Of a DNA stretch of 64,000 nt, positions 20,934-29,978 are shown piece after piece; the stretch's first letter is position 1, and each line of letters starts with the position of its first letter. Made by a program: the position numbers and the translations under genes. A model generated the notes under the pieces. It was not told the DNA's origin. It worked only from the letters and a program-made list of their open reading frames with translations, and made no database searches. Source of the DNA: Megalobrama amblycephala (taxonomy: Eukaryota; Chordata; Actinopteri; Cypriniformes; Xenocyprididae); contig NC_063052.1 of assembly GCF_018812025.1 (NCBI RefSeq), positions 27,634,354 to 27,698,353 of the forward strand, in the 5' to 3' direction.

Positions 20934-21408
20934 TACGGTGGCCGGGAAGTGCAAAACAACATTACAAAGTGTGAAACACTTTTACAAAGCTCGAGACAAA
21001 TTTACATTTTGGAAAACATTTTTACCTATCATAAAACACAATTACATGGGAAAAACACTTTTACCAAGGACGAAACAAATTTACATTTTAGAAAACAAAT
21101 TAACAAGACGCTAAACACTTTTACCAGTCCCGAAACAAATTTACAATGACAGATTCTTCACGGAAAGGGAATGTACCATACACCGGAAGTGACGAGGTGA
21201 AAGGTGTTGTGGTTGGTGAGCGCGGTAAATTTGTGTTGTGGTTGTGGAGTTAATGGCGTAAATAAAGTTTATGGTGACCGAACATGGACTGCGGCCGAGG
21301 GATGTTTTGCCCGTTTTGCGGCAAACACATGAGCAGCTTAACGCGGTTTTGCTTTACGTGTGGTCGGTGTTTGGAGTTTCTAAACGACGCGGTCCAGACG
21401 GAAACACC
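20934..21408. repeat. Left TIR of the 9-kb element (includes promoter and first 41 codons)
   Basis: It matches the reverse complement of 29504-29978 with few differences. The outer 220 bp contains iterated words of the type 'GAAACAAATTTACATTTT' and 'AAACACTTTTACC' about every 40-60 bp, which look like transposase-binding sites. The inner part is the 5' leader and coding start of the integrase. Identity ends at the codons for T41-P42. Confidence 0.85.
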
Positions 21409-22933
21409 AGACATATTGCATCAATGTGTTCAATATTTTAACGAGGGACACTCGTACGCTGTAATCGTGGACATGATGTCAAGTCTACACGGTGTAAACA
21501 TCAGCTTGAGGACTCTTAAAAGTAAACTGAACGAAGCCGGGTTGTACCGCAGAAAGGATTATTCCTCTCCAAACTCCTTGAGTAACGCCATCAGATTGGA
21601 ACTTCGTGGACCTGGACAACTATTTGGCTACCGCACGATGTGGCAGGTACTTAAACAAAAGTACAATTTTCGAGTGAAGAGAGATGATGTGATGAATTTA
21701 CTCCGGGAGCTTAATCCTCGAGGGTGTGAGAGCAGAACACGCAGAAGGTTTACAAGAAGAACCTACCACTCAATGGGACCTAACTATATGTGGCACGCAG
21801 ATGGCTATGATAAACTTAAGCCATTCGGTTTGGCCATATCGGGATGCATAGATGGATTTTCACGTAAAGTACTGTGGCTTGAATGTGGACCAACAAATAA
21901 TAACCCAACAGTGATTGCTCACTATTTCATGTCATGTGTGCGAAACCTCGGTGTCATCCCAATGAGACTGAGGACTGATTGCGGCACTGAGAACGGCATA
22001 ATGGCTGCAATTCAATGTACGCTACGCCACCATCACAGTGACTACTACTCTGGCGCGTCCAGCCACATGTACGGCTCATCTACAAATAACCAGCGAATTG
22101 AGTCCTGGTGGTCTATATTTAGAAGGGGAAGGTGAGTGGTCTTCATAAAGGGTCATTGCATCTTTTGGTCATTCGATTTTCTTCTCAGGAACGAGTAATG
22201 AAAAAAAAAAAAAAAACGAGCACAATAAAAAATATAAATCAATACAAAATATAAAACAAATACAGCCCGCCAGGAAAAGTAGTTGTTCCTGAAAAGAAAA
22301 TTGAATGACCAAAAGATGCAGACCATACATTTCATTACGATTAACCTTTGATTTTATTATTCAAACATATGTGTATATGCTTAAAAGTATAACTACAATT
22401 TGTATCAATTTCTATAGGTCTCAGTTCTGGATGGAGTTATTTGCAGACCTTAGAGAAGCCGGATACTTCAACGGGAGTCATGAGCACCAGTGCCTATTGA
22501 GATATTGCTTTGGTGATGTTATTCAGAAGGACTTGGATGAGTGTGTGAGACTGTGGAACAGTCACAGGATTCGCCCTTCCAGAACAGCAGCATGTCCAGG
22601 AGGAGTGCCCAATGAACTCTACTACTTACCACACAGGTGATACGTTGTTGATAAACAGATAAAAGTAATATTCTAACGTTTTAGCTTAAATGAAAATAAA
22701 TACTTATGTTTTCTATTTAACATAGGTTTGGCTCCAGAGACTGCGGATTTCAAATTGAACAGACTGAACTGGATGCCCTTCCTGAAACTAGCCTGTCAAT
22801 GACTCCTTGTGGGGACCCAAACATGCAGGAGTACTTGGACTTTGCCATGGAACACAATCAGTTACAGAAGCCAGAGAACTGGGAGTCTGCATCAGAACTG
22901 TACATGAAACTAAAAGAAATGGCTCAGCTATGA
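21284..22933 (+). CDS. DDE integrase/transposase, 3 exons, 424 aa
   Basis: Exons are 21284-22131, 22418-22636 and 22726-22933, with GT-AG introns that keep phase (1,275 nt including stop). Residues 1-42 form a zinc ribbon (C9-x2-C12, C23-x2-C26). Residues 43-160 look like helix-turn-helix DNA-binding sequence, with 'VNISLRTLKSKLNEAGLYRR'. The catalytic core has D173 (YMWHADGYD), D232 (LRTDCGTENG) and E273 (NQRIESWW), spacing similar to retroviral/IS3-type integrase folds; 'TD.GTENG' and 'N.RIE.WW' are hallmark motifs. The exon 3 tail is acidic. The expected role is to bind the TIR arrays and catalyse excision/integration in the nucleus. The start codon lies in the TIR, giving the same N-terminus as the HECT gene. 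No frame disruption is seen. Confidence 0.88.
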
Positions 22934-23316
22934 AATGATCAAAAAGGGAGGTTTTTTTGTAGTGGTGGAATACTGCTGTCTGTCTGAACACAATGTTTAT
23001 GAATCTGTCACCCACAGCTTAATTGTTTTTAAGTGTGAAGTAAATTAATCAAAAATAGTAATAAGTATTTATTAAATTTTTGTAGTATAGAAAACAATAC
23101 TTCTTGAACTACTTGTTTCTTTATCTAAAACAGTGATTCACACAAAGGGATCCCAGTTTGAGAGTCACGAATCTAAAACATTTTCAAAATGTTAACAGTG
23201 AGAAAAACATGCTCGCATACTGTTACATTATAAAAACAATTTTGGCAAATGCACTTTAAAGTGAACCTTTAACAACAACAATGTTTTCAGAGTCTAGGGG
23301 TCATCCATCATTTAGC

Positions 23317-29300: not shown

Positions 29301-29628
29301 GTTTGTATGATGGGCATGGTTGTTCTGCTGAAATGGACAGAGTTCCGTTCCAAAACAGAAAGTTATAAGCCGCTCAAAAAATCATTATTAGCATTACTGA
29401 TTTTTATTCACATGGCCTCAGATAGCTAGCGTTTTGCTACACTAAAAAAATAACAAATAACAACTTACTTTGCTTAGCACTGTCCGGCTGTCGAGACGTC
29501 CCCGGTGTTTCTGTCTGGACCGCGTCGTTTAGAAACTCCAAACACCGACCACACGTAAAGCAAAACCGCGTTAAGCTGCTCATGTGTTTACCACAAAACG
29601 GGCAAAACATCCCTCGGTCGCAGTCCAT
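23317..29628 (-). CDS. HECT-domain E3 ubiquitin ligase (G2E3-like), 13 exons, 682 aa, inside the transposon
   Basis: Exons in transcript order: 29628-29469, 29327-29203, 29086-28771, 28664-28585, 28330-28278, 27281-27242, 27149-27082, 26952-26863, 26760-26447, 26301-26123, 25885-25713, 24512-24298, 23552-23317. All introns are GT-AG, phases are consistent and the total is 2,049 nt. Residues 1-42 repeat the integrase zinc ribbon. The middle is a linker with an acidic Ser/Asp/Glu stretch (VDDTSDSDSE). From about residue 340 to 682 is a HECT domain: 'GIDTGGPRREFLTLL' (377-391) is the typical N-lobe motif, and 'ANTCTNSLKLP' carries the predicted catalytic Cys650. It would form a ubiquitin thioester and transfer ubiquitin to a substrate. 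Fish genomes carry many 'G2/M phase-specific E3 ligase-like' annotations, which may come from such elements. Substrate unknown. Exon 5 and the exon 8 donor are the least certain boundaries. Confidence 0.85.
23583..24248. repeat. Interspersed repeat in HECT intron 12
   Basis: It starts 'TAAGGGTTCAAGCTCAAAGA' and ends 'CTTGAACCCCGATAAATGCT' plus 'GCTTGCAGCTTTA', so its termini are partly inverted. A related terminus is at 11401. It lies entirely within an intron, so it need not disrupt the HECT message. Confidence 0.65.
25036..25260. repeat. Common fish interspersed repeat in HECT intron 11
   Basis: 'AATTCAATTTTATTTATAGT' leads into 'AAGACACTTTACAGATAGAG' and 'CCCAACAATTCTAGTAATTC', a sequence I recognise as widespread in teleost introns. 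Its family is not assigned. The rest of intron 11 (24513-25712) is AT-rich without further features. Confidence 0.45.
27801..27861. repeat. Perfect 21-bp-arm hairpin in HECT intron 5
   Basis: 'TTCACCTGCAAGAGCTTATT'G at 27801 is exactly complementary to the sequence at 27841-27861, with a 19-nt spacer. It could be a MITE remnant or a structured intronic RNA. No wider inverted context was seen. Confidence 0.7.
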
Positions 29629-29978
29629 GTTCGGTCACCATAAACTTTATTTACGCCATTAACTCCACAACCACAACACGAATTTACCGCGCTCACCAAC
29701 CACAACACCTTTCACTGCGTCACTTCCGGTGTATGGTACATTCCCTTTCCGTGAAGAATCTGTCATTGTAAATTTGTTTCGGGACTGGTAAAAGTGTTTT
29801 GCGTCTTGTTAATTTGTTTTCTAAAATGTAAATTTGTTTCGTCCTTGGTAAAAGTGTTTTTCCCATGTAATTGTGTTTTATGGTAGGTAAAAATGTTTTC
29901 CAAAATGTAAATTTGTCTCGAGCTTTGTAAAAGTGTTTCACACTTTGTAATGTTGTTTTGCACTTCCCGGCCACCGTA
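29504..29978. repeat. Right TIR of the 9-kb element (includes HECT exon 1 start)
   Basis: Reverse complement of 20934-21408. It supplies the promoter region, the start codon (29628) and the first 41 codons of the HECT gene. Differences from the left TIR include D4 instead of G4 and a few leader substitutions. It has the same iterated 'TTTACATTTT' subterminal motifs. Confidence 0.85.

Follow-up and report, generated by a model that had tools for sequence, protein, structure and literature searches.

A stretch of 64,000 nucleotides from Megalobrama amblycephala (NC_063052.1, positions 27,634,354 to 27,698,353; hereafter the window) carries a putative IS3EU-type transposon with two convergent genes, a predicted DDE transposase of 424 amino acids and a predicted HECT ubiquitin ligase of 682 amino acids. 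Both frames are open, and the genes lie between terminal inverted repeats (TIRs) of 475 bp. The ligase is likely a working part, i.e. an accessory gene, of the transposon lineage and not a stray host gene. The two proteins start with the same zinc ribbon, whose exon is duplicated by the TIRs. It is an evenly balanced possibility that the ribbon carries the ligase to the element ends, where it would ubiquitinate bound proteins, most likely the transposase complex. Sequence comparisons show the gene pair to be old and jointly inherited, and insertions of related elements with both genes have clean 6-bp duplications.

The first-pass annotation of this DNA had put the inverted repeats at about 470 bp; they measure 475 nt each and are 98% complementary, with nine differences. 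It had described them as enclosing the two genes. Both genes are present, but the TIRs are partly coding, each holding the first 42 codons of one gene. Its description of the genes themselves is borne out: the 424-residue integrase with D173, D232 and E273 reads in frame over three GT-AG exons, and the convergent 682-residue ligase, with the GIDTGGPRREF motif and the TCTN cysteine, reads on the minus strand through 13 exons, with all introns GT-AG and no stop within its 682 codons. Splicing of both genes is a reading of the genomic sequence, and the exons are predicted ones. In transposase exon 1 the integrase core is recognised as Pfam rva_4 (E 8.7e-22). Catalysis by HECT ligases passes through a thioester at a cysteine. 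The joined protein has a Pfam HECT domain (PF00632, residues 405-680, E 1.9e-16) and a TCTN cysteine in the C-lobe, which together would make it a HECT-type E3, and in an alignment of homologs the catalytic residues are invariant or nearly so. No third gene, as also claimed, was seen among the listed reading frames, which were inspected by eye, the remaining frames without a family search.

Is the gene pair more than a single coincidence? The genome (1.11 Gb) was searched with both proteins; 137 of 178 integrase and 65 of 243 HECT candidates were scored, so that the counts are lower bounds. Of the 102 integrase rows and 85 HECT rows, 85 and 43 respectively went into clusters; excluded were ribbon-only rows, rows of exons 1-2 (among them a further two copies of the TIR, on C3) and extra rows of loci already listed. 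Of the resulting 25 HECT clusters, 15 have one of the 74 integrase clusters within 12 kb, where 0.04 would be expected. Fourteen of the 15 were scored convergent; the remaining one, at C1:21.80 Mb, had been joined to another integrase match upstream, and its near match is also convergent. Close copies recur among the 15 (C67/C14/C4; C15/C19; C1:21.80/C5/C5/C18), which leaves about nine independent families. The pair at C1:21.80 Mb has 349-bp TIRs, and no ribbon was found there by the pattern used. Ten HECT clusters have no nearby integrase, and four of these derive from the window family and carry TIRs (C5:9.42, C9:23.18, C10:31.21 and C14:40.29 Mb).

In one diverged family, three copies with TACGGTGGCCC..GGGCCACCGTA at their ends enclose matches to both genes, and each has its own 6-bp duplication (Table 1). 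The ends of the C14 and C4 copies were read directly, and their genes are known from search matches. The copy on C4 is shorter by about 650 bp, and HECT residues 316-425 have no match in it. At the same place in the TIR as the repeat array of the window element, a diverged family has seven repeats of about 20 bp with a different sequence. A third family with both genes is represented by L056 (C19) and L053 (C15), with 97-98% identity between the two copies for either protein. With the ribbons removed, HECT identity follows transposase identity over 12 element pairs, the near-copies L053 and L056 included (r 0.90; 0 of 20,000 permutations), and the parallel divergence is also seen among the nine pairs with adjacent genes (r 0.88). 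Long-term constraint on the HECT gene is similar to that on the transposase.

Among the matches listed, both proteins have their closest relatives in ray-finned fish. Neighbouring HECT and integrase genes are found in at least five other fish (Archocentrus, Notolabrus, Crenichthys, Takifugu flavidus and Brachyhypopomus), the pairing being read from consecutive locus names or equal contigs in the best 120 of 195 and of 809 matches. The first-pass annotation made its case depend on conservation of the pair in other copies. This is found in related families (the 15 clusters, the three duplicated insertions and the five other fish), but not in the window family within this genome, where the other TIR-matched copies fetched have no integrase core; two very short TIR matches (C15 and C21) are outside that set. 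Fish genes annotated as 'G2/M phase-specific E3 ubiquitin-protein ligase-like' are homologous to the element HECT gene over its full length, e.g. with 82% identity in Seriola (P0003). Proteins so named include close homologs, two of which lie beside an integrase (Takifugu flavidus and Brachyhypopomus), again among the matches listed. The name is taken from a host gene, and the link to vertebrate G2E3 is one of annotated names. In the same list, HECT identity over part of the length is 94% for Coregonus, 91% for Esox and 91% for Micropterus, versus 86% for zebrafish. These high values for distant fish hint at horizontal transfer.

The zinc ribbon is the feature that ties the two proteins to the repeats. 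Both start MDC(G/D)RGMFCPFCGKHMSSLTRFCFTCGRCLEFLNDAVQTETP and have the form CxxC..CxxC, and the TIR extends to the end of this 42-codon stretch. Six families were compared (window, Archocentrus, polypterids, Oryzias, Takifugu and Misgurnus), in pairs selected by species or element after the sequences were seen. Mean identity between HECT and transposase ribbons is 93% for matched and 61% for unmatched pairs, and only one of 720 pairings, the true one, reaches the matched value. With the diverged loci L052 and L053 of this genome added, the values are 81% and 52%, and two of 40,320 pairings reach this. When 40 HECT proteins were aligned, 33 reached the ribbon, and 31-32 of these have the cysteine at each of its four positions. 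The ribbon patterns detected 27 of 62 HECT proteins and 31 of 62 integrases, and in a second set 45 of 120 and 31 of 120; they missed proteins with other spacing or another start, and fragments are frequent among the listed proteins. In Brachyhypopomus, one HECT protein (P0018) has an annotated start that looks, by eye, like a translated TIR repeat array, the gene model apparently running into the TIR.

At the window copy itself, the target duplication that the first-pass annotation proposed to look for is absent: the flanks are GGATTG and AGTTCT. The left flank, ending GGATTG, matches a site on C6 (C6:14525642), where the empty site continues GATGCAGAATG. The right half matching this C6 site starts with GGATTG, is 89% identical to C6 and is found on C1, outside a TIR end of 183 bp (L017:9707). 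The right flank is the interior of a dispersed repeat with 43 matches, itself included, and in the other four copies of that repeat that were read AGTTCT is preceded by TAGACT. Because the left flank matches the C6/C1 site and the right flank is repeat interior, the two ends (20933 / 29979) are read as coming from different insertions, and the window copy as rearranged. Recombination, aberrant transposition or an assembly error could be the cause. The window TIR has 17 further matches in the genome besides its own two. One window-family copy, L010, is flanked by the 6-bp duplication AAAGCA. L009 (C5:9419960-9424618), L012 (C10:31211971), L010 and L015 are derivatives that lack the integrase core. 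Both ends of L009 carry HECT-side sequence, in an inverted arrangement, and the identical left flank of the C5 and C10 copies suggests a duplicated locus.

Table 1. Coordinates of the window element and of three copies of a diverged family
Feature	Position	Strand	Remark
Left TIR	20934..21408	+	begins TACGGTGGCC; inner end includes the transposase start codon and zinc-ribbon codons
Left-TIR array, ten repeats of about 20 bp (AAACANNNTTAC-like)	20954..21152	+	candidate transposase binding sites
Transposase codons 1-42	21284..21409	+	zinc ribbon CPFC..CFTC, common to the HECT gene
Transposase exon 1	21284..22131	+	rva_4 integrase core; D173 21800-21802, D232 21977-21979, E273 22100-22102
Transposase exon 2	22418..22636	+	sequence reading
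Transposase exon 3 with stop	22726..22933	+	sequence reading
HECT exon 13	23317..23552	-	C-lobe, catalytic cysteine 23418-23416, stop
HECT exon 12	24298..24512	-	sequence reading
HECT exon 11	25713..25885	-	sequence reading
HECT exon 10	26123..26301	-	sequence reading
HECT exon 9	26447..26760	-	GIDTGGPRREF motif
HECT exon 8	26863..26952	-	sequence reading
HECT exon 7	27082..27149	-	sequence reading
HECT exon 6	27242..27281	-	sequence reading
HECT exon 5	28278..28330	-	weak acceptor, GAG
HECT exon 4	28585..28664	-	sequence reading
HECT exon 3	28771..29086	-	conserved folded domain, about residues 95-200
HECT exon 2	29203..29327	-	sequence reading
HECT exon 1	29469..29628	-	sequence reading
HECT codons 1-42	29503..29628	-	same zinc ribbon as transposase
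Right TIR	29504..29978	-	ends GGCCACCGTA; inner end includes the HECT start codon and zinc-ribbon codons
Right-TIR array, ten repeats of about 20 bp mirroring the left TIR	29760..29958	-	mirror coordinates
Diverged-family copy	C67:37993-44852		duplication GAATAC
Diverged-family copy	C14:25541071-25547940		duplication GGCAAG
Diverged-family copy	C4:43414102-43420317		duplication GAAAAC

Adjoining the element, at 30513-31802 of the window, is a long reading frame with motifs resembling those of reverse transcriptases (YADDL); by eye it is probably the remnant of a long interspersed nuclear element. Dozens of short family-B elements occur elsewhere, with a TIR at both ends and end starts about 0.4-0.8 kb apart, and resemble miniature inverted-repeat transposable elements (e.g. 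C11:20775004-20776026). Among 71 family-B ends typed from 141 rows there are 34 inward pairs of such TIR-only copies. Short TIR-only copies are thus common, and the transposase therefore likely acts in trans.

How might a ligase serve a transposon? The ribbon may bind the array of repeats of about 20 bp in the TIRs, or the transposase itself, and a ligase that is active would then be carried by it to the element's own ends. There it could ubiquitinate the transposase complex, and such a mark might lead to dismantling of the very stable post-insertion complex and limit the amount of transposase. The ClpX unfoldase acts on Mu transposase, and by analogy the ligase may have a comparable role in a eukaryotic cut-and-paste element. 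The ribbon shared through the TIRs is a concrete, testable idea for how a ligase finds its target. A wider proposal can be made, of a fish transposon lineage in which an interchangeable TIR ribbon tag is always on both transposase and HECT ligase, the ligase dismantles the transpososome, and this element accounts for much of the 'G2/M phase-specific E3 ligase' expansion in ray-finned fish; it is speculative and rather unlikely. The homologies do suggest that many fish genes named after the cell-cycle ligase need to be checked for transposon ends before they are read as expansions of a host gene family.

Several observations weigh against a ribbon-guided ligase that serves the element. The ligase activity, ribbon binding and substrate are proposed from sequence. 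The HECT gene is not needed in cis, since TIR-only copies abound, and it may be dispensable in some relatives: 59 of the 74 integrase clusters (e.g. L057) have no nearby HECT match, an absence that is not firm with 65 of 243 HECT candidates scored. At L057 no recognisable second gene was seen among the listed frames, by eye without a family search. Close copies have ratios of nonsynonymous to synonymous substitution of 0.50-0.71 and up to four stops, as expected of copies in decay. Of the six matched ribbon pairs, only that of the window comes from one shown element: for Archocentrus, Oryzias and Misgurnus the two ribbons are from one species each, for the polypterids from two genera and for Takifugu from two species. 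Identical tags, moreover, are not universal. In families B and C (L052 and L053) each gene still opens with a ribbon, and identity between the ribbons of the two genes is 50% and 39%. As both genes there are ribbon-led and the ribbons differ, the shared domain would be of old date, and it would be the TIR that keeps the ribbons alike in the window family.

Could the shared ribbon then be a by-product of TIR growth, by which both genes acquired one promoter and start codon, with no targeting role and a ligase that acts otherwise? The TIR does stop where the coding part of the ribbon stops (21408), and it takes in the upstream sequence and the start codon. The ribbons of families B and C, however, are no longer copies of each other and yet keep all four cysteines in both genes, and the cysteines are kept almost throughout the HECT homologs; this explanation is improbable. 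That the HECT gene is a chance passenger, under no selection within the element, is in keeping with the many unpaired integrase clusters and with the want of precedent: a HECT ligase is not known as standard transposon cargo, and none was found in the literature searched. Such a passenger would not be expected to show an old association with parallel divergence and repeated pairing, nor constraint like that of the transposase and nearly invariant catalytic residues, which makes it a very improbable reading. The alternative named in the first-pass annotation, a single-copy host gene flanked by a local inverted duplication, would agree with the lack of a target duplication at the window copy, but is refuted by the many HECT copies, the further TIR matches and the AAAGCA duplication at L010; its chance is negligible.

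A more serious rival accepts that the ligase works for the element, but as an anti-silencing or repair-steering factor that marks host chromatin repressors or break-repair factors and not the transposase. Roles in host pathways have been proposed, in the text available for each source, for TET in fungal IS3EU elements against methylation (PMC12730594), for OTU and Ulp1 in Ginger1 on repair (PMC2836005) and for VTD in Helitrons (PMC9741609), and a shared ribbon would also put such a ligase on element chromatin. No host target is indicated, however, and since the ribbon is in common with the transposase, the first candidates would be the transposase or its sites. This rival deserves attention, while being rather unlikely. 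The preferred reading remains a ligase brought by its ribbon to the transposase complex at the element ends.

Where does the element stand among known systems? Its termini, TACGG..CCGTA, fit the TA..TA ends of IS3EU/GingerRoot (TAYGG..CCRTA in fungal members), and TACGGTGG..CCACCGTA is found at the window and at most other ends read, L017 (TATGG) and L018 (TACAG) being exceptions. Seven copies had both ends read: L010 and the C67, C14 and C4 copies have a 6-bp duplication, as in IS3EU/GingerRoot, no duplication is present at the window copy or L011, and GCAGCG at L009 is one base off. Pfam rva_4 is present in 34 of 34 transposase homologs and the IS3-like HTH_21 in 12 of 34, which is compatible with IS3EU. 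The N-terminus is the CxxC..CxxC ribbon, with no HHCC before the core, and no H2C2-type integrase zinc-binding family is among the nine families matched by the 34 homologs (E 0.01). The sequence is thus consistent with IS3EU/GingerRoot in its ends, TIR length and 6-bp duplications, as these are given in the available text of PMC10045372 and PMC12730594. Two other superfamilies were rejected: Ginger1, as neither the 34 transposase homologs nor the HECT protein has an OTU or Ulp1 match, and IS481EU, which has TNT..AYA ends, TIRs mostly below 50 bp and target duplications of about 4, 15 or 25 bp, against TA..TA, 475 bp and 6 bp here.

We know of no HECT ligase that is standard transposon cargo. 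A HECT-bearing transposon was not found in the literature searched, with Repbase and most subscription journals outside that search; the word HECT is absent from the main text, as available, of PMC10045372 and PMC12730594, and the main text of a screen of transposable-element domain fusions with multicopy domains (PMC12062965) makes no mention of it. Transposon enzymes that remove ubiquitin or SUMO (OTU, Ulp1 and VTD) and RING fingers fused to transposases were known previously. The nearest likeness, in the parts of the sources at hand, is to the fungal TET-bearing IS3EU families, which pair a transposase with an alpha-kinase gene in opposite orientations (PMC12730594). TA..TA termini, TIRs above 30 bp, 6-bp duplications (here in sister copies), an integrase-like DDE transposase and an opposite second gene are common to both, but the second gene is a HECT ligase here, and a zinc-ribbon exon is common to both genes through the TIR. 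Ginger1 also ties an integrase-like transposase to the ubiquitin/SUMO system; its OTU or Ulp1 protease domains, however, remove the tag and are fused to the transposase (PMC2836005, text available), whereas a separate gene for a tag-adding ligase is present here. RAG1 and Chapaev transposases likewise have a ubiquitin ligase domain within a DNA-transposon system, but this is a RING finger fused to a transposase of another superfamily (PMC4411706, same limitation). Helitrons and Helentrons encode a ubiquitin enzyme as well, the VTD deubiquitinase, which is part of the protein of a rolling-circle element (PMC9741609, likewise). As far as the literature searched shows, a conserved, separately encoded HECT ligase is a different transposon use of the ubiquitin system.

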